Assembly: GCA_023954045.1 (NCBI GenBank)
Contig: JAMLIR010000009.1
Location: 62,001 to 126,000 of the forward strand
From: Burkholderiaceae bacterium
GTDB lineage: Bacteria > Pseudomonadota > Gammaproteobacteria > Burkholderiales > Burkholderiaceae_E
DNA length: 64,000 nucleotides
Direction of reading: 5' to 3'
Shown: positions 11,448 through 47,744 of the stretch, one piece after another
Position numbering within the stretch: position 1 is the stretch's first letter
Layout of the letters: each line of letters starts with the position of its first letter
The notes under the pieces: model-generated
The model's input: the letters and a program-made list of their open reading frames with translations, nothing else
Told to the model about the DNA's origin: nothing
Databases searched by the model: none
Made by a program: the position numbers and the translations under genes

Positions 11448-12257
11448 ATGCGTGCCTCGACATCCGGTCAACCCGAGCTGTTGCAGCGCCTCGAGCTGCT
11501 GAAAATCGAGATCGACGGCGCGATCGCGTCGGTGCGGCTGAACCGGCCGGCCAAGCGCAACGCGCTCAGCGACCCGATGATCGCGCAGCTGCACACCTGC
11601 TTCGTCAACCTGCCCGACAGCGTGCGCGCGATCGTGCTCAGCGGCGAGGGCGAGCACTTCTGCGCCGGGCTCGACCTGTCGGAGCTCTCGGAGCACAGCG
11701 TGGCGGGCGGCATCGCGCACTCGCGCTTCTGGCACGCCGCGTTCGACCAGGTCCAGTTCGGCCGCGCGCCGGTCGTGGCGGTGCTGCGCGGCGCGGTGGT
11801 CGGCGGCGGGCTCGAACTGGCCAGCGCGGCGCACGTCCGCGTCGCCGAGGACAGCGCGATCTACGCGCTGCCCGAGGGACAGCGCGGGCTGTTCGTCGGC
11901 GGCGGCGGCTCGGCGCGCGTGCCGCGGCTGATCGGCTTCTCGCGGATGGCCGACATGATGCTCACCGGACGGGTGCTCGACGCCGACGAGGGGCAGCAAG
12001 CGGGGCTCTCGCAATACCGGGTCGCCCAAGGGCAGGGGATGGGCAGGGCGATGGAGCTCGCGCGCCGCATCGCCGAGAACGCACCGATGTCCAATTTCGC
12101 GGTGATGCACGCGCTGCCGCGCATCGCCGACATGTCGCAGTCCGACGGCCTGTTCGTCGAATCGCTGATGGCGGCGATCGCGCAGGCCGAGCCGGCCGCC
12201 AAGGACCGCATGCGCGCGTTCCTCGAAGGCCGGGCCCGCAAGGTGCGCAAGGCATGA
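11448..12257 (+). CDS. Crotonase-family enoyl-CoA hydratase / hydroxycinnamoyl-CoA hydratase-lyase candidate
   Basis: A 269-residue crotonase-fold enzyme. The oxyanion-hole signatures are present: 'SGEGEHFCAGLDLSEL' and 'GAVVGGGLELASAAHVRVAE', followed by 'YALPEGQRGLFVGGGGSARVPRLIG' carrying the Glu used as general acid/base. It is the first gene of an operon with feruloyl-CoA synthase (ATGA overlap at 12254). The expected role is hydration of feruloyl- or coumaroyl-CoA, followed either by retro-aldol cleavage to the aldehyde and acetyl-CoA or by beta-oxidation. No aldehyde dehydrogenase is in the window, so which of the two occurs is open. Confidence 0.85.
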   Translation: MRASTSGQPELLQRLELLKIEIDGAIASVRLNRPAKRNALSDPMIAQLHTCFVNLPDSVRAIVLSGEGEHFCAGLDLSELSEHSVAGGIAHSRFWHAAFDQVQFGRAPVVAVLRGAVVGGGLELASAAHVRVAEDSAIYALPEGQRGLFVGGGGSARVPRLIGFSRMADMMLTGRVLDADEGQQAGLSQYRVAQGQGMGRAMELARRIAENAPMSNFAVMHALPRIADMSQSDGLFVESLMAAIAQAEPAAKDRMRAFLEGRARKVRKA

Positions 12258-35873: not shown

Positions 35874-36524
35874 ATGGTCAAGCCCGCTCCTCTCCGGGAC
35901 CGGACGGTCACCCGCGATCCCGACGCCACCCGCGAGGCCATCCTCTCCGCAGCCACCGACGAGTTCGCCCAGCACGGCCTCGCCGGCGCGCGCGTCGACC
36001 GAATCGCCGAACGCGCCGGGGTCAACAAGCGGATGCTGTACTACTACTTCGGCCAGAAGGAGAGCCTGTTCCTGGCCGTGCTCGAAGGCGCCTACCACCG
36101 GATCCGCGACGAGGAGCATCGGCTGAACCTGGCGCAGGTCGAGCCCACCGAGGCGATCCGCCGGCTGGTCGCGTTCACCTGGAACTACTACATCGCCCAC
36201 CCCGAGTTCCTCACGCTGCTGAACACCGAGAACCTGCACCGGGCCCGCCACCTGAAGAAGTCGTCGAAGGTGCGCACGATGCACTCGCCGTTCGTCGCCT
36301 CGATCGCCGAAGTGCTCGAGCGCGGACGCACGGCCGGCGTGTTCCGTGCCGGCGTCGACCCGGTGCAGCTCTACATCTCGATCGCCGGGTTGTCGTACTT
36401 CTACCTGAGCAACAACTTCACGCTGTCGACGATCTTCGACCGCGACCTGATGTCGCCGAAGGCGAAGGTCGAACGGCTGTCGCACATGACCGACCTGGTG
36501 CTCGGCTACCTGGTGCGCGACTGA
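35874..36524 (+). CDS. TetR-family (RutR-like) transcriptional regulator
   Basis: A 216-residue TetR protein. The N-terminal HTH is complete: 'TREAILSAATDEFAQHGLAGARVDRIAERAGVNKRMLYYYFGQKESLF'. The C-terminal ligand-binding part, with 'FVASIAEVLERGRTAGVFRAGVDPVQLYISIAGLSYFYLSNNFTLSTIF', resembles the RutR/YcdC type. RutR of E. coli binds TTGACCA-NN-TGGTCAA, i.e. six-base half-sites with a four-base spacer. The three operators found in this region have the same half-site and spacer architecture (near TTAACC-N4-GGTTAA). It converges on the ABC transporter operon and is the best candidate regulator for the whole 36-47 kb block. Confidence 0.88.
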   Translation: MVKPAPLRDRTVTRDPDATREAILSAATDEFAQHGLAGARVDRIAERAGVNKRMLYYYFGQKESLFLAVLEGAYHRIRDEEHRLNLAQVEPTEAIRRLVAFTWNYYIAHPEFLTLLNTENLHRARHLKKSSKVRTMHSPFVASIAEVLERGRTAGVFRAGVDPVQLYISIAGLSYFYLSNNFTLSTIFDRDLMSPKAKVERLSHMTDLVLGYLVRD

Positions 36525-36531
36525 GCGCCGC

Positions 36532-37299
36532 TCAGTCCATTCCGAGCAGCTTGTAGATCCGCCGCGTATAGGCGCCGAAACGCTCGCTGGTCTTCATGTC
36601 GAGCGTGCGCGGATGCGGCAGGTCGATCTCGAAGTTGTCGGCCATTCGCGCAGGACCGGCGGTGAACACCACCACGCGACTGCCGAGGAAGACCGCCTCG
36701 GAGATCCCGTGCGTGACGAAGATGATCGTCTTTCCGGATTCCTTCCAGATCCGCAGCAGCTCGAGATTCATCTTCTCGCGCGTGAGCGCGTCGAGCGCGC
36801 CGAAGGGCTCGTCCATCAATACCAGCTTCGGATCGTGGACCAGCGCGCGCGCGATCGCCGCCCGCTGCTGCATCCCGCCCGAGAGCTCGTACGGGTACTT
36901 GTCCTCGTAGCCCGCGAGCCCGACCAGCGCGAGCAGCTCGCGGCCGCGCCGCTTCGCCTCGGCCATCGGCAGCCCGAGCAGTTCCGCGGGCAGCAGCACG
37001 TTGTCCAGGATGCGGCGCCACTTCAGCAGCAGCGGCGCCTGGAACACCATGCCGATGTCCCGCGCCGGGTCGAACGGGTGGGTGGACGAGCCGATGCGCA
37101 CCTCGCCGCCGTCGTGCGGATGCAGCCCGGCCAGGATCTTCAGCAGCGTCGACTTGCCGCAGCCCGACGGGCCGACCAGCGCGACCAGCTCGCCGGGCAT
37201 CACGTCGAAGCTGGCGTCCGAGATCGCGAGGTGCTCCTTGCGCCCGGTGCGGTAGACCTTGGTGACGCCCGATAGGTGAATGAAGGGTTCGACGCTCAT
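36532..37299 (-). CDS. ABC transporter ATPase (nitrate/taurine/NMT1-type importer)
   Basis: A 255-residue ATPase like SsuB/TauB: Walker A GPSGCGKST, the Q-loop 'GMVFQAPLLLKWRRILDNVLLP', signature LSGGMQQ, Walker B LVLMDEPFGALD and 'IIFVTHGISEAVFL'. It overlaps the permease gene by ATGA (37296-37299) and is last in the operon that begins with a DHDPS-family gene. The operon is transcribed away from the binding-protein gene at 39329, with which it shares a promoter region. Confidence 0.95.
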   Translation of the reverse strand: MSVEPFIHLSGVTKVYRTGRKEHLAISDASFDVMPGELVALVGPSGCGKSTLLKILAGLHPHDGGEVRIGSSTHPFDPARDIGMVFQAPLLLKWRRILDNVLLPAELLGLPMAEAKRRGRELLALVGLAGYEDKYPYELSGGMQQRAAIARALVHDPKLVLMDEPFGALDALTREKMNLELLRIWKESGKTIIFVTHGISEAVFLGSRVVVFTAGPARMADNFEIDLPHPRTLDMKTSERFGAYTRRIYKLLGMD

Positions 37300-38063
37300 C
37301 CGACGCGCGCGTCCTTCGGGACCAGCAGGCGCTCCATGCCGAGCACCAGCCCGTAGAGGATCATCCCGAGCAGCGTGATCAGGATGACCGCCATGAACAT
37401 CGCCGGCGTGTCGAGCGTGACCTGCACCTGCAGCATCAGGTAGCCCAGCCCCTTGTCGGAACCGAGGAACTCGCCGACGATCGCGCCAGCGACTGCGAGG
37501 ATCGCGGCGACCTTCATGCCGGCGAAGATGTAGGGCAGCGAGCCGGGCAGCTGGATCTTGGTGAACAGCTGCCAGCGCGAGCCGCGCAGCGACCGGACCA
37601 GGTCGAGCAGGTCGGGCTCGATCTCGCGCAGGCCGCGCGCGGTAGTCAGCAGGATCGGGAACACCGCGATCGAGAAGGCCATGATCGTGTTCGGGAACAC
37701 GCCGTACTTGAACCAGACGATGATCAGCGGGCCGAGCGCCACCTTCGGGATCATGTTCAGCGTGACGAGGATCGGCATGAACAGCGATTCGAGCGTCTTC
37801 GACCAGGTGAAGACGAGTGCGAGCAGGACGCCGATGACCAGCGCGAGAAAGTAGCCGCCGAAGATCTCGGTCGCGGTCACCGAAACGTTCGCCCACCAGT
37901 CGTAGCTGGGCGAGAGCAGCGCCTCGAACGTCGCTCCCGGCGACGGCATCACGAACTTGGGCACGTCGCCGAGGCGCACGAACAGGTACCAGACGACGAG
38001 CAGCCCGAGGTGCGCGAGCACCGCGAGCGCGTAGCGGCCCAGCGTCGTGTGGAGGCGGTCCAT
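37296..38063 (-). CDS. ABC transporter permease (SsuC/TauC type)
   Basis: A 255-residue permease with six membrane segments. The binding-protein-dependent transport signature is visible around 'GMKVAAILAVAGAIVGEFLGSDKGLGYLML', with the preceding 'RSLRGSRWQLFTKIQLPGSLPYIFAG' coupling helix. The ATG at 38063 follows a GAC/GGAC-type sequence rather than a strong Shine-Dalgarno. It overlaps the ATPase gene and follows the DHDPS-family gene by 14 bases, showing a single transcript. Confidence 0.93.
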   Translation of the reverse strand: MDRLHTTLGRYALAVLAHLGLLVVWYLFVRLGDVPKFVMPSPGATFEALLSPSYDWWANVSVTATEIFGGYFLALVIGVLLALVFTWSKTLESLFMPILVTLNMIPKVALGPLIIVWFKYGVFPNTIMAFSIAVFPILLTTARGLREIEPDLLDLVRSLRGSRWQLFTKIQLPGSLPYIFAGMKVAAILAVAGAIVGEFLGSDKGLGYLMLQVQVTLDTPAMFMAVILITLLGMILYGLVLGMERLLVPKDARVG

Positions 38064-38077
38064 CGTGCGCAGGCCCC

Positions 38078-39139
38078 TCAGGCGAGCCACTTCGACAGGT
38101 TGGCCGCGACGAACGCGTCGTCCGAGAGGTCGGCGTGCTCGCGGCAGACGCGGTCGATCTCGTCGGCCTGCCCCGGCGACAGGGTCTCGTGGGGATCGAG
38201 GCACCAGGTGCCGGCCATCAGACCCTGGCGCCGCAGCACTTCGTGGCAGCCGGGGATGCATCCGGCGAAGTCGTGCGCGACGTCGAAGAACGCGCTGTTG
38301 CAGTCGGTCACGCGCGAATCCAGCGCGAGCAGTTCGTCGTCGACGCGCCCGGCCGCGATCGCGGCGTGGATCCGCTCGAGCAGCCCCACCGCGCCCTTCG
38401 TCCAGACGCTCCAGTGGCCGAGCAGCCCGCCGCGGATGCGCACCGTGACCTCCTCGTCGCCGCGGCGCACGACGAACGGCGCCAGCAGGTCGAGCACGAT
38501 GTGGTCGTCGTTGCCGGTGTACAGCGTCACCCTGTCCTCTGCGCGCGCCGCCACCACGCCGCGCACCACGTCGAGCGTGCGATAGCGATCGAACGGCGCC
38601 ATCTTGATCGCGACGACGTTGTCGATCGATGCGAAGCGGCGCCAGAACTCGGCGGGCAGCGCAATGCCGCCCACCGCGGTCTGCAGGTAGAAGCCTACCA
38701 GCGGAATGACGCGCGCGACCGCCTCGCAGTGCGCGACGAGCTCGTCGATCGACGCGCCCTTCATCGCGGCAAGCGACAGCAGGCCCGCGTGGTAGCCGTG
38801 GCCGAGCGCGACCTGCGCCTCGCGGCACGCCTGCCCGGTGCGCCCGGCGAGTCCGGCAATCATGACCAGCGGCCGGTCGGTGGCCTCGCGCGCGGTGCGG
38901 GCGGCGAGCTCGAGCACCGGCTCGTAGAGGCCGACGTCACGGATCGCGAACTGCGTCGAGTGCACGCCCACGGCCAGCCCGCCCGAGCCCGCGTCGACGT
39001 AGTACCGGGTGAGCGCGCGCTGCCGCAGTCGATCGAGTTTTCGGGCGGCGTCGAGCGCGAGCGGATGCGCCGGGATCACGGTGCCGCGCCGCAGCAGCGC
39101 GAGCACCTCGGCGGGAAGCTCCGACCGGTGAAGGGGCAT
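38078..39139 (-). CDS. Dihydrodipicolinate synthase-family aldolase/dehydratase
   Basis: A 353-residue TIM-barrel protein of the DHDPS/N-acetylneuraminate lyase superfamily, longer than the usual 290-300 residues. Near residue 180 'NVVAIKMAPFDRYRTLDVVRG' carries the Schiff-base Lys, and the preceding 'IPLVGFYLQTAVGGIALPAEFW' holds the region with the catalytic Tyr. The N-terminal 'YYVDAGSGGLAVGVHSTQF' replaces the common GTTGE loop. These enzymes cleave or form C-C bonds in keto-sugar acids or dehydrate them. It is first in the operon with the importer genes, so it likely acts on the imported compound. Confidence 0.85.
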   Translation of the reverse strand: MPLHRSELPAEVLALLRRGTVIPAHPLALDAARKLDRLRQRALTRYYVDAGSGGLAVGVHSTQFAIRDVGLYEPVLELAARTAREATDRPLVMIAGLAGRTGQACREAQVALGHGYHAGLLSLAAMKGASIDELVAHCEAVARVIPLVGFYLQTAVGGIALPAEFWRRFASIDNVVAIKMAPFDRYRTLDVVRGVVAARAEDRVTLYTGNDDHIVLDLLAPFVVRRGDEEVTVRIRGGLLGHWSVWTKGAVGLLERIHAAIAAGRVDDELLALDSRVTDCNSAFFDVAHDFAGCIPGCHEVLRRQGLMAGTWCLDPHETLSPGQADEIDRVCREHADLSDDAFVAANLSKWLA

Positions 39140-39174: not shown

Positions 39175-39206
39175 TATACTGATCGACGATGTAACCAGAC
39201 AGTTAA
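39175..39206 (+). promoter_or_regulatory. Divergent promoter with RutR-like operator (site A)
   Basis: TATACT (39175-39180) is a good -10 box for the binding-protein gene; the -35 is weak. Just downstream lies the inverted repeat GTAACC-AGAC-AGTTAA (39191-39206), 10 of 12 matches to TTAACC-N4-GGTTAA. It lies between the DHDPS-family gene (start 39139, opposite strand) and the binding-protein gene (start 39329), so it can control both. Confidence 0.6.
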
Positions 39207-39328
39207 TTTACTCTAACGCAGCGGCCCTCCAGCGTCAACGATTGCGGCGCGTTGACGATGCTTCGAGCGCGCCGATAACATCGCCGTCACATCGGCATTG
39301 CACAGCCGCGCTCGACCCAGGAGACACC

Positions 39329-40321
39329 ATGTTCGCGCGAACGATCCTAACGGCTGCCGTCGCGGCCATCGCCTTCGCCTCGGCGCCGGCCCAGGCCCAG
39401 CAGAAGCTCGACTTCATCCTCAACTGGGTCCCCGGCGGCGACCACGCCCCGTACTACTACGCGAAGAAGCTGGGCTGGTATGCCAAGGAAGGCATCGACC
39501 TGAACATCGAGCCCGGCAAGGGCTCGGCGCTGGCCACGCAGAAGGTCGGCGCGGGCGCCAATCCGGTCGGCCTCGCCGACATGGCCGGCGTGCTGGTCGC
39601 CAAGGGCAAGGGCGCCGACACGGTCGCGGTCTACAACGTCTACGCCAACTCGCCGCAGGGCATGTACTGGCTGAAGAGCTCGGGCATCAAGGGCGTGAAG
39701 GACTTCGTCGGCAAGAAGATCGGGAACCCGGCGGCCGACGGCGCGCGCGTGATGTGGCCGGCGCTCGCCAAGGCCAACGGCATCGACCCGAAGTCGGTCA
39801 CCTGGGTCAACATCGACGCCAACGCGAAGCTGGCGGCGCTGAAGGCGAAGTCGATCGACGTGACGACCTCGTTCTACAACCTGCACCACGTCTTCCAGCG
39901 CGAGCTCGGCGACGACATGGGCTTCCTCGCCTGGCGCGACGCGGGCCTGAACCCGTACGGCAACTCGATCATCGTCAACGCGAAGTTCCTCGAGGCGAAC
40001 CGCGCGACGATCGACAAGTTCGTCAAGGTCACGCAGCGCGCGTTCGCCGCCTGCGTGAAGGAGCCCGAGCCCTGCGTGCAGGCACTGGTCGACGCCAACG
40101 GGGCGCTGAAGTTCGACAACGAGCTCACCAACTGGAAGCTCGTCGAGGTGCTGATGAGCGACAAGTTCTCGCGCGAGATGGCGCTGGGCATCCACGAAGA
40201 CGGCCGGATGAAGGCCGACTACGAGCTGGTGCGCGAGTACATCGGGCTGGACAAGCCGTTCGACGTGAAGACGGTGTACACGAACGAGTTCCTGGATCGC
40301 TCGATCAAGATGGCCAAGTGA
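39329..40321 (+). CDS. ABC transporter substrate-binding protein (NMT1/THI5-like)
   Basis: From ATG 39329, after AGGAGACACC, the product is 330 residues with a signal peptide cleaved after AQA (about residue 23). The mature part shows the NMT1/THI5 pattern: 'LDFILNWVPGGDHAPYYYAKKLGWYAKEGIDLNIEPGKGSALATQKVGAG', then 'GVKDFVGKKIGNPAADGARVMWPAL'. Relatives bind pyrimidine precursors, riboflavin, sulfonates or aromatic compounds. It pairs with the permease and ATPase encoded divergently. The ligand is unknown; the adjacent sugar-acid-type enzymes make a polyol or sugar-acid derivative plausible. Confidence 0.92.
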   Translation: MFARTILTAAVAAIAFASAPAQAQQKLDFILNWVPGGDHAPYYYAKKLGWYAKEGIDLNIEPGKGSALATQKVGAGANPVGLADMAGVLVAKGKGADTVAVYNVYANSPQGMYWLKSSGIKGVKDFVGKKIGNPAADGARVMWPALAKANGIDPKSVTWVNIDANAKLAALKAKSIDVTTSFYNLHHVFQRELGDDMGFLAWRDAGLNPYGNSIIVNAKFLEANRATIDKFVKVTQRAFAACVKEPEPCVQALVDANGALKFDNELTNWKLVEVLMSDKFSREMALGIHEDGRMKADYELVREYIGLDKPFDVKTVYTNEFLDRSIKMAK

Positions 40322-40324
40322 GCT

Positions 40325-41314
40325 TCAGCCGAGCTCCGGGCCGGCGACCAGGATGATCCGGCTGGGGTCGCCGGGGGCGGTCTTGAGGCCGCGCACCATC
40401 CGGGTGAAGGGGCGCTGGTAGGCGAAGCCGCGGGCCTGCAGCCACGGGACCAGTTCGGCGAAGCGGTCGGCGAGGTCCAGGTAGACCGGGCCCGAGACGC
40501 TCGAAAGGGCGGCCTCGAGCAGCGCGCCGGCGGTCGCGAGATCGGATGCGACCAGCGGGCCGATCTGGGTCGCCTCGCGGCCGTCGCGGCCGAAGACGAA
40601 GCCGACGAGGCGGCCGCCGCGCTCCGCGACGTGGGCGGCGCGCGGCAGGCGTGCCGCAAGCGAGCGCAGCAGCGCTTCGCGGTCGGCGCCGAAGGCGGGG
40701 CGATCGATGCCGAGGATCGCGGGCCAGTCGGCATCGCCTGGCGCGCGCACGGCGGCTGCGGGCGCCTCGCGACCGGACGCACGCGCGGCTGCGGCGGGCG
40801 GCGGCGCCGCGGGCGCGGGGGCGGGCGCCTCGCGGCGATAGCGACGGAAGCCCCAGCTGTCGACGAACCCGAGCGGCACATAGATCGGGTGACCTGCCGG
40901 GGTCGCATCGAGAATGGCCCCGATGCCTCGCCAGGCGAGCTCGTTCAGCGCGTGGGCGAGCAGCCGTGACGCGTAGCCGCGGCCGCGGAACTCGGGGAGC
41001 ACCAGCACCATGCTGACCCACGCGAACTCGCTGCCGTAGGGCAGCGCGACGACCGAAGCGGCGAGCCGCTCGCGCCCCGCCGCGTCGGTCGCGCGGATGC
41101 CCCAGGCGCGCCCCAGCGTCAGCATCAGCCGCCAGTCGGCCTCGTTCTGGTTCCACGATGCGGAGGCCGACAGTTCGATCGCGCCGGCCAGGTCGGCGAC
41201 GCTGAGCGGCACGATCGGCGTGGCGTCGGGCTGGCCGGGCGCCCCGGTCCCGTTCGCCGGCCCGACGACCGCGCGCCTGGCCCGGCGCTCGCGGCGATCC
41301 TCAGTACTTCCCAT
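40325..41314 (-). CDS. Tandem GNAT-type acetyltransferase protein
   Basis: A 329-residue protein with two GNAT folds joined by an Ala/Pro-rich linker (about residues 165-190). The first carries the acetyl-CoA loop 'VLVLPEFRGRGYASRLLAHAL' (the R-G-x-G pattern) and 'PIYVPLGFVDSWGFRRYRRE'. The second ('AHVAERGGRLVGFVFGRDG' and 'ALSSVSGPVYLDL') lacks the R/Q-x-x-G-x-G/A loop and is probably structural. It is last in the MetE-like operon, overlapping the epimerase gene by 14 bases. A role in modifying the pathway substrate is possible, but nothing in the sequence fixes it. Confidence 0.82.
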   Translation of the reverse strand: MGSTEDRRERRARRAVVGPANGTGAPGQPDATPIVPLSVADLAGAIELSASASWNQNEADWRLMLTLGRAWGIRATDAAGRERLAASVVALPYGSEFAWVSMVLVLPEFRGRGYASRLLAHALNELAWRGIGAILDATPAGHPIYVPLGFVDSWGFRRYRREAPAPAPAAPPPAAAARASGREAPAAAVRAPGDADWPAILGIDRPAFGADREALLRSLAARLPRAAHVAERGGRLVGFVFGRDGREATQIGPLVASDLATAGALLEAALSSVSGPVYLDLADRFAELVPWLQARGFAYQRPFTRMVRGLKTAPGDPSRIILVAGPELG

Positions 41315-42341
41315 CGCGAGTCGCGAAGTGCGTGGGCTTGCCCAGGCTCGGCTGTCCGCGCTCGACCCAGTCGGCGACCCAGTCGATCATCTGCTCGATC
41401 GGCACGCGCGGCTTGCCGAACAGCCGCTGCGATTCGCGGGTGTCCTCGAGCCACGCGGTCGCGGCCTCCTGCCCGACGAGCACCGGCGCGCGCCCGAAGC
41501 GCTTGCCGAACTCGCCGGCGAGCCAGCGGATGCTCGTGTGCTCGGGGCCCGTGACGTTGATCGGCGACGTGGGCGTCGTGCAGTGCGCGAGCAGGCGCAG
41601 CGACTGCTCGTTCGCGTCGCCTTGCCAGATCACGTCGGCATGGCCCATCGTCAGGTCGAGCGGCGTGCCGCCGAACACCGCGGTCGCGACGTCGAACAGG
41701 ACGCCGTAGCGCATGTCGATCGCGTAGGACAGGCGCACCAGCCGGCCCGGCGTGCCGTACCTGCGCGAGCCGTACTCGAACATCCGCTCGCGGCCGACGC
41801 ACGAGTTCGCGTAGTCGCCCGCCGGCGGCGTGGCAGGCGTGCGCTCGTCGGCGCCCGGGCCGTCGACCGGCACGAACGGGTACACGCAGGCGGTCGAGAA
41901 CGCGACGATGCGCATTTCGCGGAACGTCTCGGCGACCATCATCGGGACGCCGACGTTCATCATCCAGGTGAGCGAGGCGTTGTCGGCCGCGCCGAACTTG
42001 TGCCCGGCCATGAAGACCAGGTTGCGCACGCCGTCGCCGACGTTGGGCAGGTGCTCGAGGGCCGCGCGGTCGAGCAGGTCGCACGCGATGCATTCGACTC
42101 CGTGGCGCTCGAGCGAGGCGACGAGGCTCGGGTCGGAGAAGCGCGCGACGCCGATGACCCGGCGACCCGGCGCGGCGCGGCGCGCCATCCGTGCCAGCGT
42201 CGGGCCCATCTTGCCGCCGACGCCGAGCACCATGATGTCGCCGTCGACGCGCTCGAGGTCGGCCACGAGCGCCGGCGTCGGCTCGCTCATGAAGGTCTCG
42301 AGCGCCTCGACATCGTCGAAGCGCTTCGGCAGAGCGGACAT
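41301..42341 (-). CDS. NAD-dependent epimerase/dehydratase-family (SDR) protein
   Basis: From ATG 42341, after CAGGAGACCCCG, the product is 346 residues. The nucleotide-binding motif GVGGKMG is at about residues 40-46, preceded by an extra N-terminal helix. 'VGDGVRNLVFMAGHKFG' holds the N-terminal acidic-contact strand, and 'FSTACVYPFVPV' replaces the usual S-SSVYG. The catalytic YxxxK is not clear: 'YANSCVGRERMFEYGSRRYG' has Cys-Val-Gly-Arg-Glu where Tyr-xxx-Lys normally stands, so the enzyme may be an atypical SDR. It is the middle gene between MetE-like and GNAT genes. The reaction is unknown. Confidence 0.82.
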   Translation of the reverse strand: MSALPKRFDDVEALETFMSEPTPALVADLERVDGDIMVLGVGGKMGPTLARMARRAAPGRRVIGVARFSDPSLVASLERHGVECIACDLLDRAALEHLPNVGDGVRNLVFMAGHKFGAADNASLTWMMNVGVPMMVAETFREMRIVAFSTACVYPFVPVDGPGADERTPATPPAGDYANSCVGRERMFEYGSRRYGTPGRLVRLSYAIDMRYGVLFDVATAVFGGTPLDLTMGHADVIWQGDANEQSLRLLAHCTTPTSPINVTGPEHTSIRWLAGEFGKRFGRAPVLVGQEAATAWLEDTRESQRLFGKPRVPIEQMIDWVADWVERGQPSLGKPTHFATRDGKY

Positions 42342-42391
42342 CGGGGTCTCCTGGAAGTGTTGCGGCGGCGCGCGGCGCGCCCGGAGCCGGA

Positions 42392-43408
42392 TCAGGCGGA
42401 ATTGTGCCTCGTGATCCCCTCGAACCGGTCGCGACCGGCCGCCAGCGCGCGGATCTTCGCGTCGGCGATCGAGCGCTTGAGCATCCAGAAGCCGCAGTCG
42501 GGATGAATGTATCGGACGCGCCCGGCGCCCAGCGTCTTCTCGGCGCGCTCGATCGCGCGGGCCACGTCGTCGGCGCTCTCGACGTCGGTCGTCTTGATGT
42601 CGACCACGCCGAGACCGAAGCCGATGCGCGGATCGAGGTCCGCGAAGGCCTTCAGCTCTTCGGGCGGGCGGTGGGCGCACTCGAGGACGACGTGGTCGGC
42701 GTGAAGCGCGTTCAGGTAGCGGATCAGCTTGTCCCAGGTGCCCTTCTGCACCGACTGTCCGCCGTAGTTGCCGAAGCACAGGTGCACCGCCGGGATGCCC
42801 TTGACCGCGTCGAGCACGCGATTGATCGCCGAGGCCGCCCACTCCCATTCCTCCGGGTGGCCGGGCAGGTTCGCCTCGTCGACCTGCACGACGTCGGCGT
42901 CCAGGTGCCGCACTTGCGAGGCGAGTACGTCGGCGAGCGCGTGCGCGAGCTCGGCGGTGTCGCGATAGTGCTTGTCCATCAGCGTCTTGGCCAGCATGTG
43001 CGGGCCGGTGACCGTGAACTTGAACGGCTTCGTCGCGAGCGCTTTGGCGCGCGCGCAGGCCAGCGGCAGGTCGAGACTGCCGTGGCCCAGCGGCCCGACC
43101 ACGGTGCCCGGCGGGCGCGTGCGGAACTTCATGCCGCTCTTCGAGCGGTAAGCGATCAGCTCGTCGAACGAGAAGCGCTGCGTGACGCCATCCATCGGGC
43201 GCACGAAGTATTCGATCATCCCGTTGGTCTCGGGATGGTTGATGTCGAAGCGCGAGAGCTCGCCGTCGCAGACGACGTCGATGCCGGCCTGCTCCTGGAT
43301 CCCGATCACGACGCGCGTGGCGTCGAGCAGCGCGTGCTCCGAGGGGCTCGCGACGAGCCAGTCGGGCACGGGATACGAGCCGACGACGGTGGTGCGGATT
43401 CTGGGCAT
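42392..43408 (-). CDS. Orphan MetE-type (cobalamin-independent methionine synthase) catalytic-domain protein
   Basis: A 338-residue protein matching only the C-terminal catalytic barrel of MetE, without the N-terminal half. The zinc-binding residues of the family appear in order: His and Cys in 'VHLCFGNYGG', Glu in 'VVLECAHRP' and the last Cys in 'YIHPDCGFW'. The N-terminal 'TTVVGSYPVPDWL' and 'QEQAGIDVVCDGELSR' also fit. Stand-alone forms use varied thiol or methyl-transfer substrates. It starts the operon reading away from the oxidoreductase gene, 15 bases from operator B. Methionine synthesis is less likely than a role in breaking down the imported compound, for example methyl transfer; this is inference. 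Confidence 0.83.
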   Translation of the reverse strand: MPRIRTTVVGSYPVPDWLVASPSEHALLDATRVVIGIQEQAGIDVVCDGELSRFDINHPETNGMIEYFVRPMDGVTQRFSFDELIAYRSKSGMKFRTRPPGTVVGPLGHGSLDLPLACARAKALATKPFKFTVTGPHMLAKTLMDKHYRDTAELAHALADVLASQVRHLDADVVQVDEANLPGHPEEWEWAASAINRVLDAVKGIPAVHLCFGNYGGQSVQKGTWDKLIRYLNALHADHVVLECAHRPPEELKAFADLDPRIGFGLGVVDIKTTDVESADDVARAIERAEKTLGAGRVRYIHPDCGFWMLKRSIADAKIRALAAGRDRFEGITRHNSA

Positions 43409-43422
43409 CTGGGCGTCGTTTG

Positions 43423-43438
43423 TTAACCGAATGGTGAC
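43423..43438. promoter_or_regulatory. RutR-like operator (site B)
   Basis: TTAACC-GAAT-GGTGAC, 10 of 12 matches to the palindrome TTAACC-N4-GGTTAA. It ends 15 bases before the MetE-like start codon, where a bound dimer would block transcription or translation start. Confidence 0.6.
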
Positions 43439-43479
43439 AAGTCGATGGTATCGCGCCGGTCCGTGGCCTTCAAGCTGCC

Positions 43480-43527
43480 TTGACGGGGCGCCGCCGGCGG
43501 CCGTAGACTAATTAACCAACAAGTTAC
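43480..43527 (+). promoter_or_regulatory. Sigma-70 promoter with operator over the start site (site C)
   Basis: TTGACG (43480-43485) and TAGACT (43504-43509), 18 bases apart, make a good promoter with a start near 43516. The inverted repeat TTAACC-AACA-AGTTAC (43512-43527) covers that start. This is a textbook repression layout for the oxidoreductase operon that begins at 43579. Confidence 0.65.
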
Positions 43528-43578: not shown

Positions 43579-44730
43579 ATGAGCACTCGACGACTCGGCA
43601 TCGTGATGCATGGCGTCACGGGCCGCATGGGGATGAACCAGCACCTGATCCGCTCGATCGTCGCGATCCGCGAGCAGGGCGGCGTGAGGCTGGCCGACGG
43701 CGACCGCGTGATGCCCGATCCGATCCTGATCGGACGCGGCGCCGAGCGGATGGAGGCGCTCGCGAAGGCGCACGGCGGGCTGCGCTGGGGCACCGATCTC
43801 GATCGCGCGCTGGCCAATCCGGACGACACGGTGTTCTTCGACGCCGCGACGACGCAGATGCGCCCGACGCTGGTCAAGAAGGCGATTGCCGCCGGCAAGC
43901 ACGTCTACTGCGAGAAGCCGTCGGCGACCAACCTCGCCGAGGCGATGGAGATCTACGAGGCGGCCCGCAAGGCGGGCGTCAAGCACGGCGTCGTGCAGGA
44001 CAAGCTGTGGCTCCCGGGGCTGTTGAAGCTGAAGATGCTGATCGACTCGGGCTATTTCGGCCGCATCCTGTCGGTACGCGGCGAGTTCGGCTACTGGGTG
44101 TTCGAGGGCGACCTGCAGCCCGCGCAGCGGCCGTCGTGGAACTACCGCAAGGAAGACGGCGGCGGGATCATCCTCGACATGCTGTGCCACTGGCGCTACG
44201 TGGTCGACAACCTGTTCGGCGAAGTGAAGAGCGTCTCGTGCCTGGGCGCGACGCACATCCCGCAGCGCCGGGACGAACACGGCAAGCCGTACACGGCCAC
44301 CGCCGACGACGCCGCCTACGCGACCTTCGTGACCGACCAGGGCGTCATCGCCCACTTCAACAGCTCGTGGTGCGTACGCGTGCGTCGCGACGACCTGCTC
44401 ACGCTGCAGGTCGACGGCACGCACGGCTCGGCGGTGGCCGGGCTGCGCGGCTGCCGCACGCAGCCGCGCGTGAACACACCCAAGCCCGTGTGGAATCCCG
44501 ACCTTCCGCAGCCGATCGACTTCTTCGAAGGCTGGCAGGAAGTGCCCGACAGCGTCGCGTTCGACAACGCGTTCAAGGCGCAATGGGAGCTCTTCATCCG
44601 CCACGTCGTCGAGGACGCCCCGTTCCCCTGGAACCTGCGCGAGGGCGCCAAGGGCGTGCAGCTGGTCGAGGCCGGGCTGCAGTCGTGGCGCGAGCGGCGC
44701 TGGGTCGACCTCGGGGCGCTGCCCGCGTGA
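43579..44730 (+). CDS. Gfo/Idh/MocA-family oxidoreductase
   Basis: A 383-residue protein with an N-terminal nucleotide fold that starts unusually ('[22 protein letters not shown]', with GVTGRMG as the dinucleotide loop). It carries the family hallmark '[23 protein letters not shown]', with the EKP lysine. The C-terminal beta-sheet domain includes '[21 protein letters not shown]', whose Asp and His are the usual active-site acid/base. It should oxidise or epimerise a polyol, sugar or sugar acid with NAD(P). First gene of a three-gene + strand operon behind operator C. Confidence 0.9.
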
Positions 44731-44741
44731 CGGGGATCGCG

Positions 44742-45920
44742 ATGCCGACGCTGATCCTTCCCGCCGTCGACGGCGCGCTGCGCCCGTTCACGCTGTCCGC
44801 GCCGAGGGGCTACGCGCTGCGCGCAACCGGCCCGTTCAACCGGATCGCCTACTCGGCCGCGCACGTCGTCGCCGATCCGCTGTCGCCGGTCGACCCGTGG
44901 ATCGGCTGCGCGATCGACTGGGACACGACGATCGCGTACCGGAAGCGCCTGTGGGGGCTGGGGCTCGGCGTCGCCGAAGCGATGGACACCGCGCAGCGCG
45001 GGATGGGCCTCGACTGGCCGACCTCGCTCGAGCTGATCCGCCGCTCGATCGACGCGGCGCGCGACCACCCGGGCGCGCTCGTCGCGTCGGGCTGCGGCAC
45101 CGACCACGTCGCGCCCGATCCGTCGATGTCGATCGACGCGGTGATCGCGGCCTACGAATCGCAGATGGAGGCGATCGAGGCGCTCGGCGGCCGACTGATC
45201 CTGATGGCGAGCCGCGCGCTGGCCGCTTGCGCCACGTCGCCCGACGACTACGGCCGCGTCTACGACAGGCTGCTGTCGCAGGTGCGCGAGCCGGTGATCA
45301 TCCACTGGCTCGGCGACATGTTCGACCCGGCGCTGGCCGGCTACTGGGGCCACGCCGACCCGATGGCGGCGATGGACGTCGCGGTCGACATCCTGAATCG
45401 CAACGCCGCGCGCGTCGACGGCGTGAAGATCTCGTTGCTGGACAAGGACAAGGAGATCGCGATGCGCAGGCGCCTCGCGCCCGGCATCCGGATGTACACC
45501 GGCGACGACTTCAACTTCGCCGAGCTGATCGCCGGCGACGAGCAGGGGCATTCCGACGCGCTGCTCGGCATCTTCGATGCGATCGCGCCGGCGGCGTCGG
45601 CAGCGCTCGCCGCGCTGGCTCGCGGCGACACCGCGCGCTTCCACGAGATCCTCGGCCCGACGGTGCCGCTGTCGCGGCACGTCTTCTGCGCGCCGACGCG
45701 CTTCTACAAGACCGGCGTCGTCTTCATGGCCTGGTTGAACGGCCAGCAGGACCACTTCGTGATGGTCGGCGGACAGCAGTCGACGCGCAACATCCGGCAC
45801 CTGGCCGAGCTGTTCCGGCTCGCCGACGCGGCCGGCCTGATCGAAGACCCGGAGCGCGCCTGCACGCGCATGGCGCAGCTGCTGGGCACGCAGGGCATCG
45901 ACGCGCGGGTGGCGAAATGA
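44742..45920 (+). CDS. DUF993-type DHDPS-superfamily protein
   Basis: A 392-residue TIM-barrel protein of the DUF993 type ('dihydrodipicolinate synthase family'). The N-terminus reads 'LPAVDGALRPFTLSAP', and the segment 'FNRIAYSAAHVVADPL' starts the barrel. Later 'VDGVKISLLDKDKEIAMRRRL' holds the Lys at the Schiff-base position, and 'MYTGDDFNFAELIAGDEQGHSDALLG' follows. I chose ATG 44742, which has GGGGA in front; a GTG at 44727 overlaps the upstream stop and is possible. It is unrelated in detail to the DHDPS-family protein at 38078, so the locus has two different lyase-type barrels. Function is not established for this family. Confidence 0.85.
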   Translation: MPTLILPAVDGALRPFTLSAPRGYALRATGPFNRIAYSAAHVVADPLSPVDPWIGCAIDWDTTIAYRKRLWGLGLGVAEAMDTAQRGMGLDWPTSLELIRRSIDAARDHPGALVASGCGTDHVAPDPSMSIDAVIAAYESQMEAIEALGGRLILMASRALAACATSPDDYGRVYDRLLSQVREPVIIHWLGDMFDPALAGYWGHADPMAAMDVAVDILNRNAARVDGVKISLLDKDKEIAMRRRLAPGIRMYTGDDFNFAELIAGDEQGHSDALLGIFDAIAPAASAALAALARGDTARFHEILGPTVPLSRHVFCAPTRFYKTGVVFMAWLNGQQDHFVMVGGQQSTRNIRHLAELFRLADAAGLIEDPERACTRMAQLLGTQGIDARVAK

Positions 45921-46771
45921 GCGCGCCGTCGCCCGAGCTGTTGTCGCTCAATACGGCGACCGTGCGCGAACAGTGGAACCTGCGGCAGATGATCGAGGGC
46001 TGCGCGCGGCACGGCATCCGCGGCATTTCGCCATGGCGCGACAAGCTCGACGAGCTCGGTGCGGCCGAAGCCGCGCGGCTGATCCGGCAGCACGGCCTGA
46101 CCGTCACCGGCCTGTGCCGCGGCGGGATGTTCCCGGCGGCCGATGCCGCCGGGCGTCGCGCGGCGATCGACGACAACCGGCGCGCGATCGACGATGCGGC
46201 GACGATCGGCGCGCGCTGCCTGGTGCTGGTGGTCGGCGGCCTCCCCGCCGGTTCGAAGGACCTCGCCGGCGCGCGGCAGATGGTCATCGACGGAATCGCG
46301 CAGGTCCTCGACCATGCGCGTGGCTGCGGCGTGCCATTGGCGATCGAGCCGCTGCACCCGATGTACTGCGCCGACCGCGCCTGCGTGAACACCCTCGACC
46401 AGGCGCTCGACATCTGCGACGGGCTCGACCCGGCGCCTTCGGGCGCCGCGCCGTCCGGCGCGATCGGCGTCGCGGTGGACGCCTACCACGTCTGGTGGGA
46501 CCCGAACCTGGCGCGGGCGCTCGAGCGCGCACGCCCCGAGCGGCTGCTCGCCTACCACATCTGCGACTGGCTGGTGCCGACGACCGACCTGCTGCTCGAC
46601 CGCGGGATGATGGGCGATGGCGTCATCGACCTGCCGGCGCTGCGCGCGCTGGTCGAGGGACACGGGTATCGCGGCTTCCACGAGGTCGAGATCCTGTCGA
46701 CGCGCTGGTGGCAGCGCGATCCCGACGAGGTGCTGCGGATCGCGCGCGAGCGCCACCTGCGCTGCAGCTGA
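45917..46771 (+). CDS. Sugar phosphate isomerase/epimerase-like TIM-barrel protein
   Basis: A 284-residue protein of the AP-endonuclease-2/xylose-isomerase-like barrel, starting at an ATGA overlap. Metal-binding positions are seen: Glu and His in 'PLAIEPLHPMY' (about residue 139), Asp/His in 'GVAVDAYHVWWDPNL', 'LLAYHICDW' and the final 'FHEVEIL' Glu. This is the normal set for a 2-keto-sugar isomerase/epimerase or 3-keto-sugar-related lyase. With the oxidoreductase and the DUF993 protein it suggests oxidation, isomerisation and retro-aldol cleavage of a sugar- or inositol-like compound. Confidence 0.88.
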   Translation: MSAPSPELLSLNTATVREQWNLRQMIEGCARHGIRGISPWRDKLDELGAAEAARLIRQHGLTVTGLCRGGMFPAADAAGRRAAIDDNRRAIDDAATIGARCLVLVVGGLPAGSKDLAGARQMVIDGIAQVLDHARGCGVPLAIEPLHPMYCADRACVNTLDQALDICDGLDPAPSGAAPSGAIGVAVDAYHVWWDPNLARALERARPERLLAYHICDWLVPTTDLLLDRGMMGDGVIDLPALRALVEGHGYRGFHEVEILSTRWWQRDPDEVLRIARERHLRCS

Positions 46772-46895: not shown

Positions 46896-47744
46896 ATGGC
46901 GGATTGCCTGTCGAACCTGCTCGCCCGTTTCAGCGCCGCGGCCCACGTCGACCGGACCGGCGCCCTGCACCACGCCGCGTCCTTCGACGCCTCACACGAC
47001 GCGGGACGTCTGCACCTGTTGCGCAGCGGCGCGGCCCAGGTGCTGCATGCCGGCTGGTCGCCGCTGAAGCTGTCGCGGCCGAGCCTGCTGTTCTATCCGC
47101 GGCCGTTCGCGCATCGCCTGCAGCCCGACCCGGGGCCGGCGGTCAGCCTGGTCAGCGCCGGGATCCGCTTCGACGGCGGCTCGGTCAGCCCGCTCGCGGC
47201 GGCGCTGCCGCCGCTGCTGGTGCTGCCGCTCGAAGTGCTCGTCGACGCGCGCACCACGCTCGAGCAACTGTTCGACGAGGCTGACGCCGCCCGCTGCGGG
47301 CGCCGCATCGCGCTCGATCGCCTCTGCGACCTGCTGCTGGTCCAGGTGCTGCGGCACGTGATCGACCGTTCGCTCGCCAGCAGCGGCATGCTCGCCGGGC
47401 TCGCCGACGCGCGCCTGTCGAAGGCACTGAGTGCCTTGCACGACCAGCCCGAGCGCGACTGGAAGCTCGAAGACCTCGCTGCGCGCGCCGGGATGTCGCG
47501 GGCGCGTTTCGCGGCGCGCTTCAAGCAGGTGGTCGGCATCGCGCCGGGCGAGTACCTGACGCGGTGGCGGATCAGCCTCGCCCAGCACCTGCTGCAGCAG
47601 GGGCGGCCGGTCAAGGAGGTCGCGGGCGAAGTCGGCTACGCGAGCCCGGCCGCGCTCGGCCGGGTGTTCGCCACGCGCACCGGCGCGACGCCGAAAGCCT
47701 GGGCGCACACGCGCACGCAGGCCGTGGCCACCGAAGAGGCCTGA
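46896..47744 (+). CDS. AraC-family transcriptional regulator (cupin N-terminus)
   Basis: A 282-residue regulator. The N-terminal half is a cupin-type sensor ('SRPSLLFYPRPFAHRLQPD', typical of the AraC 'cupin_6' group). The C-terminal half holds the two HTH motifs: 'WKLEDLAARAGMSRARFAARFKQVVGIAPGEYLTRWRI' and 'VKEVAGEVGYASPAALGRVFATRTGATPKAW'. It follows the isomerase operon by 124 bases on the same strand. It could be a second regulator of the 36-47 kb block or act elsewhere; the inverted repeats found there fit a TetR dimer better than AraC direct repeats. Confidence 0.9.
   Translation: MADCLSNLLARFSAAAHVDRTGALHHAASFDASHDAGRLHLLRSGAAQVLHAGWSPLKLSRPSLLFYPRPFAHRLQPDPGPAVSLVSAGIRFDGGSVSPLAAALPPLLVLPLEVLVDARTTLEQLFDEADAARCGRRIALDRLCDLLLVQVLRHVIDRSLASSGMLAGLADARLSKALSALHDQPERDWKLEDLAARAGMSRARFAARFKQVVGIAPGEYLTRWRISLAQHLLQQGRPVKEVAGEVGYASPAALGRVFATRTGATPKAWAHTRTQAVATEEA

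Follow-up and report, generated by a model that had tools for sequence, protein, structure and literature searches.

RutR, the repressor of pyrimidine use in E. coli, recognizes the box TTGACCA-NN-TGGTCAA, with half-sites reading TTGACC. As described in the portions of three reports consulted, the RutR box is a palindrome of about 16 base pairs (bp) (PMC10891134); BkaR of mycobacteria is a TetR repressor that binds a palindromic motif with a 16-bp core and controls itself together with about ten genes, mostly nearby (PMC3920632); and the third report deals with a different motif (PMC9736018). Here, we analyze a 64-kb stretch of a Burkholderiaceae bacterium genome (GCA_023954045.1, contig JAMLIR010000009.1, positions 62,001 to 126,000), hereafter the window, in which three palindromes lie in the divergent promoter regions of a cluster that also encodes a TetR-family regulator (35874..36524, + strand). 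We propose that these palindromes are very probably the operators of this TetR protein, which would bind all three and repress ten outward-read genes. The system shares with RutR its membership of the TetR family, a palindromic box of about 16 bp and a helix-turn-helix (HTH) domain. It is unlike BkaR in both motif and genes: the BkaR core reads GTTA(N)T(N4)A(N)TAAC, and the genes under BkaR control are tied, in the part of that report consulted, to branched-chain keto-acid metabolism (PMC3920632).

Both strands of the window were scored against the 16-bp consensus TTAACC-N4-GGTTAA, which has 12 scored positions. Predicted operator A (GTAACC-AGAC-AGTTAA, 39191..39206) lies in the divergent region between genes for a DHDPS-family lyase-like enzyme and an NMT1/THI5-like substrate-binding protein (NMT1). 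Predicted operator B (TTAACC-GAAT-GGTGAC, 43423..43438) lies 14 bp 5' of the start codon of a gene for a short MetE-like protein (METE), and predicted operator C (TTAACC-AACA-AGTTAC, 43512..43527) falls over the expected transcription start of an operon headed by a Gfo/Idh/MocA-type oxidoreductase gene (GFO). Each carries two mismatches, and they are the sole matches at this stringency, against 0.05 expected; none of 100 shuffled windows reached three. Allowing three mismatches gives six matches, against 0.99 expected, the additional three being at 11539, 12893 and 34589. A preliminary description of this DNA had reported these three palindromes at the same coordinates, with ten of 12 positions matching in each and all of them confined to the two divergent promoter regions, and had placed site C over the start of a promoter; our scan reproduces each of these observations.

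Promoter consensus matches are also more frequent than expected, with four in the 5 kb scanned against 0.3. The predicted promoter of the GFO operon (TTGACG-N18-TAGACT, 43480..43509, + strand) is separated from operator C by two bases past its -10 box, and the predicted promoter of the DHDPS-like operon (TTGACG-N17-TAGAGT, 39210..39238, - strand) is followed by operator A three bases past its own. On the DHDPS side, both the -35 and the -10 hexamers (39238-39210) are conserved in an alignment with the related loci L067 and L068, while at GFO the layout of a -35 TTGAC(A/G), a -10 box and the operator recurs in L068 and L051, and in L172 with a decayed operator. A possible -10 box for NMT1, TATACT (39175..39180, + strand), with a weak -35, sits 10 bases left of operator A and is shared in the alignment by L067, L068, L069 and L042.

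Repression by blocking of RNA polymerase is the most likely mode of action, because a predicted -10 box immediately precedes both site A and site C. A TetR dimer seated on each 16-bp site, with half-sites of about TTMACC around a 4-bp center, would block transcription by covering the transcription start at sites A and C and by acting just before the METE-like start codon at site B. Operator A may even shut two facing promoters, if the TATACT box serves NMT1. The ten genes would thus remain repressed as long as no ligand frees the repressor; this ligand is probably the compound that is imported or an early product of its breakdown.

The link between the palindromes and this TetR protein comes from its relatives. 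A protein search across the order found matches at E ≤1e-40 in 44 of 399 genomes, the own genome counted, and 20 regions were taken, of which 17 come, one apiece, from the other genomes with the best matches, and three surround TetR paralogues of 49-53% identity, one such paralogue being encoded in the own genome. Fourteen regions encode a TetR that is 61-73% identical to that of the window; 13 of them carry at least one match to the consensus at ≤3 mismatches, and in all 13 a homologue of TetR, METE or another cluster gene has one site no farther than ~150 bp from its start. Among regions of the 53-56% class (L052-L054), L052 has one site with two mismatches before TetR, L053 has six matches at three mismatches, one of them upstream of a GFO homologue, and L054 has one at three mismatches.

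A scan of named genomes with an alignment of the 14 TetR proteins found at least 591 relatives, and the best 80 were retained (the 80 loci, 1.47 Mb). In 67 of the 80 loci, the stretch from -260 to +60 around the approximate TetR start contains a site with at most three mismatches (12 at zero or one mismatch, 47 at two and eight at three), the usual sign of a cognate regulator; the site begins between -50 and -13 in 65 of the 80. The TetR gene and the cluster also keep company: 64 of the 80 loci hold a GFO homologue and 64 a DUF993 homologue, with some of the 80 truncated at contig ends.

A search made blind to the proposed motif recovered it. We compared 4096 six-base half-sites at spacers of 0-10 (45,056 models) between -180 and +6 of the TetR genes, after reducing the 80 upstream regions to 59 non-redundant ones and excluding the window. 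With up to two mismatches, TTAACC-N4 ranks first (37/59) and TTCACC-N4 second (35/59), against a maximum of eight in the control, which used one mononucleotide shuffle per region. Under the stricter limit of one mismatch, ATTCAC-N6 (12) and ATTAAC-N6 (11) come out on top, each a one-base shift of that palindrome. A matrix built from the 45 of these 59 regions that carry a site at ≤3 mismatches reads TTMACC-ANNT-GGTKAA with AT-rich flanks; applied to the window, it gives 28.5 bits to site A, 25.8 to site C and 23.5 to site B, and 2.8 to the next best position. The odds that we give to the palindromes being TetR operators are based on this search, the matrix and the conservation of the sites.

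Two exact patterns, KTWACCNNNNRGTKAM and KTMACYNNNNRGTKAM, were written so that both cover sites A, B and C. The second occurs 126 times in 75 of the 80 loci. The preliminary description had named random occurrence in many coding regions as a danger to its proposal; the exact matches found in relatives are intergenic, 109 of the 126 preceding a TetR or cluster homologue by no more than 330 bp, 16 having no assigned target and a single one falling inside a homologue. The targets, of which a site may have two, are TetR (48), a TctC-type receptor (44), a permease (8), DHDPS (5), NMT1 (5), GFO (4) and METE (1), and the TctC-type receptor gene precedes GFO in many relatives. Permuting the half-site letters in all 720 ways gives a median count of 1, and the runners-up (115, 64 and 61) overlap the same site.

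The individual sites are likewise kept in relatives that retain the genes, a comparison that the preliminary description had proposed. All three stand at matching gene starts in L068 (Burkholderiales bacterium 70-64), with one mismatch at DHDPS/NMT1, two at METE and three at GFO, and in L051 (a genome of the same order), with one mismatch at each place. The position of site A is also occupied in L067, L074, L078 and L096, and that of site B in L042 and L069. Variovorax paradoxus (L139) is a further relative in which both site and cluster are retained. Between the window, L067 and L068, changes in site A are confined to the spacer and one half-site position, where L068 is closer to the consensus. 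This conservation and the co-occurrence of TetR and cluster argue for the earlier proposal that the TetR at 35874 would control ten genes from both regions.

Protein and operator also appear to vary together. Most of the site-bearing orthologues shown have the recognition region NKRMLYYYF or near variants of it (NKR(M/L)(L/I)Y), while the TetR paralogue of the own genome and two similar proteins have SSERMVYYYF and no such site upstream. Eleven plasmid loci were tabulated; a Paraburkholderia plasmid locus (L187), which has a single match at two mismatches distant from the cluster, was omitted on account of the low identity of its TetR (28% over 88 residues). The exact pattern lies by the same genes on alphaproteobacterial plasmids in three Sinorhizobium loci, in Pararhizobium and in Pseudoroseomonas; in Rhizobium lusitanum and Nitratireductor the site by these genes has one mismatch to the pattern, and Azospirillum has a perfect TTAACC-AGCC-GGTTAA before ABC genes. 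In Erwinia and Chimaeribacter, TetR is ~43% identical, its recognition region reads NKQLIYYYF and the half-site is of TCAACC type. These two Enterobacterales plasmids each carry two TCAACC-N4-GGTTGA-type palindromes, with a few bases varying, between TetR and GFO (L186:8811-8895 and L195:5810-5894), which may reflect a shifted DNA code of the related TetR.

By its domains the window protein belongs to the TetR family (PF00440, 59.2 bits against a cut-off of 24; PF17938, or TetR_C_29, 160 bits against 26.2), and the palindromic operators that this family has at its own or adjacent genes are found at both in the orthologues and in the window at adjacent genes only. Among solved structures its best sequence matches are 3npi and 2d6y, which are named just as TetR-family or putative TetR regulators, with no operator or ligand seen for either here. 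The preliminary description had called it RutR-like, and one could go further and take the cluster for a true RutR regulon of pyrimidine catabolism, its sites being RutR boxes. The relatives' consensus TTMACC-ANNT-GGTKAA indeed departs from the RutR box at just one half-site position, the third, the HTH aligns with that of RutR over 55 amino acids (aa; 50.5 bits), and the substrate-binding protein is similar to pyrimidine binders of the THI5 type. What matches RutR structures lies, however, mostly in the DNA-binding head, and position 3 of the half-site is A or C in relatives and almost never G, so that despite the common 6-4-6 form the TTGACC half-site is not what these proteins have before them. 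The RutR model TIGR03613 gives the window protein 66.8 bits against a cut-off of 368, a score on which we reject this explanation, and no protein anywhere in the own genome passes that cut-off. Domain and NCBIfam searches identified no rut or carAB gene among the ten cluster genes (the DUF993 protein was outside the NCBIfam run). We regard a true RutR regulon as extremely improbable; the likeness to RutR extends to the form of the operator and the DNA-binding head, and not to the protein as a whole. The sites could instead belong to another regulator, which we consider very unlikely. An AraC-type regulator with a Cupin_6 domain is encoded directly 3' of the right operon (46896-47744), its gene starting ~125 bp past it; we reject it, since no homologue occurs in any of the 80 TetR loci, 37 of which extend through the isomerase-like gene and a further 1.2 kb or more. 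The TetR paralogue C34 (49% identical) is the only other match to the window TetR in its own genome at E 1e-20, but its different recognition region and the lack of such a site upstream of it speak against this protein, and in 67 of the 80 loci the sites precede orthologues of the window TetR itself.

That the palindromes arose by chance in the AT-richer DNA of promoters would fit one result: genome-wide, the loose consensus occurs at the frequency of a control. At ≤2 mismatches it is found at 12 distinct places in the own genome (4.02 Mb), against 18 for the reversed control pattern; six of the nine matches outside the window fall in likely genes and three were left unplaced by the open reading frame filter. 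The genome scan suggested with the preliminary description is thus divided, in that the loose consensus is no commoner than its control while three of the four exact matches are the window sites. KTWACCNNNNRGTKAM occurs at four places, three of them the window sites, against one forward and two reverse for its reversed control; KTMACYNNNNRGTKAM likewise occurs at four places, three being the window sites, and its reversed control at four and four. Three of the four exact-pattern places fall inside 4.3 kb, in two promoter regions, and because the loose consensus is not specific genome-wide we place the weight on this clustering and on conservation in relatives. The excess in the window, conservation at the same places, the plasmid loci, the exact sites of the 80 loci, the matrix and the blind search leave chance with a negligible probability, and we reject it on the blind search and conservation in particular. 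Another question is the sign of the control. TetR might activate from these sites, or combine activation with repression in the divergent regions: toward METE and NMT1 there is no clear promoter with a site behind its -10 box, and the promoter match toward NMT1 lies downstream of site A. We hold this to be unlikely, since sites A and C stand on the expected starts of the DHDPS and GFO operons, which is the position of a repressor, and since this layout is conserved in relatives.

Several observations weigh against repression of all ten genes by this TetR from the three sites. The match toward NMT1 (TTGACG-N18-TAACAT, 39252..39281, + strand) lies 45 bp right of operator A and is not covered by it, which speaks against a simple blocking of NMT1, and the consensus scan gave no convincing METE promoter near site B; control of NMT1 and METE is thus suggested by the position of the sites, without a clear promoter for either. 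The TetR gene of the window lacks an upstream site, as do those of L067 and L068, so that self-control is missing in the window. No palindrome at ≤3 mismatches was found in L050, whose TetR is 61% identical, and the Chelatococcus locus, with a 58% identical TetR, has no 6-4-6 site, as the sole exception among the eleven plasmid loci. In a looser count over the whole of the 80 loci (≤2 mismatches), the permuted half-sites CATCAT (203) and CTTCAA (149) exceed TTAACC (100), an excess that perhaps comes from conserved coding sequence. The training sites of the matrix were chosen with the consensus of the preliminary description, albeit in other genomes, which makes the blind search the cleaner test. 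Finally, six genomes have GFO clusters without a TetR homologue in the stretch read, some of these stretches stopping at contig ends, and three of them nevertheless hold matches at ≤1 mismatch to the pattern (two in G482, one in G331 and one in G512), while G571, G627 and G495 hold none. The G331 match and one of those in G482 lie within ~35 bp of the start of an enolase-like gene; the TetR of G331 is a distant one whose recognition region differs, and G512 yielded none. This control is mixed, and neither proves nor excludes dependence on TetR.

Two side observations touch these loci. In G482, an open frame of 68 aa on contig C68 (L199) encodes a C-terminal fragment of a close orthologue of TetR (62% identity over 61 residues). 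The Chelatococcus locus has AGTAACT-N8-AGTTACT before its ABC genes (L184:4652-4890), which may be a site of wider spacing or that of another regulator.

The cluster itself is arranged around the two divergent regions, with the TetR gene at its far left, convergent with an ABC ATPase gene. The minus strand to the left of site A carries the genes of the DHDPS-family lyase-like enzyme (38078..39139; PF00701, with a weak PDB match to N-acetylneuraminate lyase), which is the first of the left operon, of an ABC permease (37296..38084, start provisional; PF00528, 106 bits) and of the ABC ATPase (36532..37290, start provisional; PF00005). The best NCBIfam matches of the ATPase, taken as the longer open reading frame 36532-37896, are Tau, Sao and Ntr types below threshold. 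NMT1 lies to the right (39329..40321, + strand; PF09084), with PDB matches to 4nmy, THI5 and the N-formyl-aminopyrimidine-binding protein 3ix1. Left of sites B and C, again on the minus strand, are METE, which has the catalytic domain of cobalamin-independent methionine synthase (42392..43408; PF01717), an NAD-dependent epimerase/dehydratase (EPIM, 41301..42341; PF01370) and a GNAT protein with Acetyltransf_18 and a second GNAT domain (40325..41314; PF18014 and others). On their right, on the plus strand, GFO (43579..44730; PF22725, PF02894) opens the right operon and is followed by a DUF993 protein (44742..45920; PF06187, 606 bits) and a TIM barrel resembling sugar phosphate isomerases/epimerases (45917..46771; PF01261, 134 bits). 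The count of ten genes read from the two regions, given in the preliminary description, is correct; the operons are drawn from short gaps and overlaps and are to that extent putative. The DUF993 protein has one PDB match, the uncharacterized 4dnh, and its plasmid homologues are publicly annotated as dihydrodipicolinate-synthase-like. On the Chimaeribacter arupi plasmid, the DUF993 homologue matches as two adjacent pieces (L195:9431-10478), for which the gene table, itself incomplete, has no gene.

Compared across clusters, the importers differ (NMT1-type ABC, sugar ABC, tripartite TctC-type and MFS), and what recurs is a core of the oxidoreductase, the DUF993 protein and the isomerase-like protein, often with an enolase-superfamily protein. 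The enzyme types hint at uptake and breakdown of a polyhydroxylated acid or sugar derivative, which we offer as a guess. A literature search with DUF993, the enzyme and transporter names and the motif strings, covering titles and the starts of abstracts, returned nothing on this cluster among the papers listed; an in-silico prediction of the regulon may already exist, RegPrecise being outside the scope of that search. A local TetR regulon of ordinary logic is well supported, and it is apparently undescribed. We further consider it reasonably probable that it belongs to an undescribed proteobacterial regulon, in which a TetR subfamily with TTMACC-N4-GGTKAA operators (TCAACC-N4-GGTTGA in two Enterobacterales plasmids) guards a catabolic GFO/DUF993/isomerase-like core, often with an enolase-superfamily protein, and swappable importers. 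The operator would be a handle on an apparently uncharacterized catabolic pathway centered on DUF993 in alpha-, beta- and gammaproteobacteria. Direct screening of substrates is feasible by transferring the repressor together with its operator and promoter to a reporter, and operator scans of genomes may reveal missing pathway genes.

The enolase-superfamily protein that recurs by the regulon in relatives is exemplified by a 478-aa protein (L048:3980-5416) with a Pfam match in its C-terminal domain only, for which a tblastn search of the window at E 1e-5 gave nothing; a relative's enolase-like protein has a weak PDB match to muconate cycloisomerase. In the own genome, the fourth exact match to KTMACYNNNNRGTKAM, TTCACTCATCAGTTAA at C21:29662 (L175:1501-1516), sits in the intergenic DNA from which a PMT_2 and a glycosyltransferase family 2 gene diverge and, as a single unsupported site, is not claimed as a further regulon member. 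Neither is the site at C3:53227, a match to KTWACCNNNNRGTKAM, which adjoins another TetR-type gene. On the same contig, C3, a TetR-type open frame (L001:1513-2613) carries an integrase-like Arm-DNA-bind_3 domain N-terminal to TetR_N and TetR_C_24, and the near-palindrome GTTACC-GATC-GGTTAC overlaps the 3' end of this frame, ~80 bp upstream of a Peripla_BP_6 gene.

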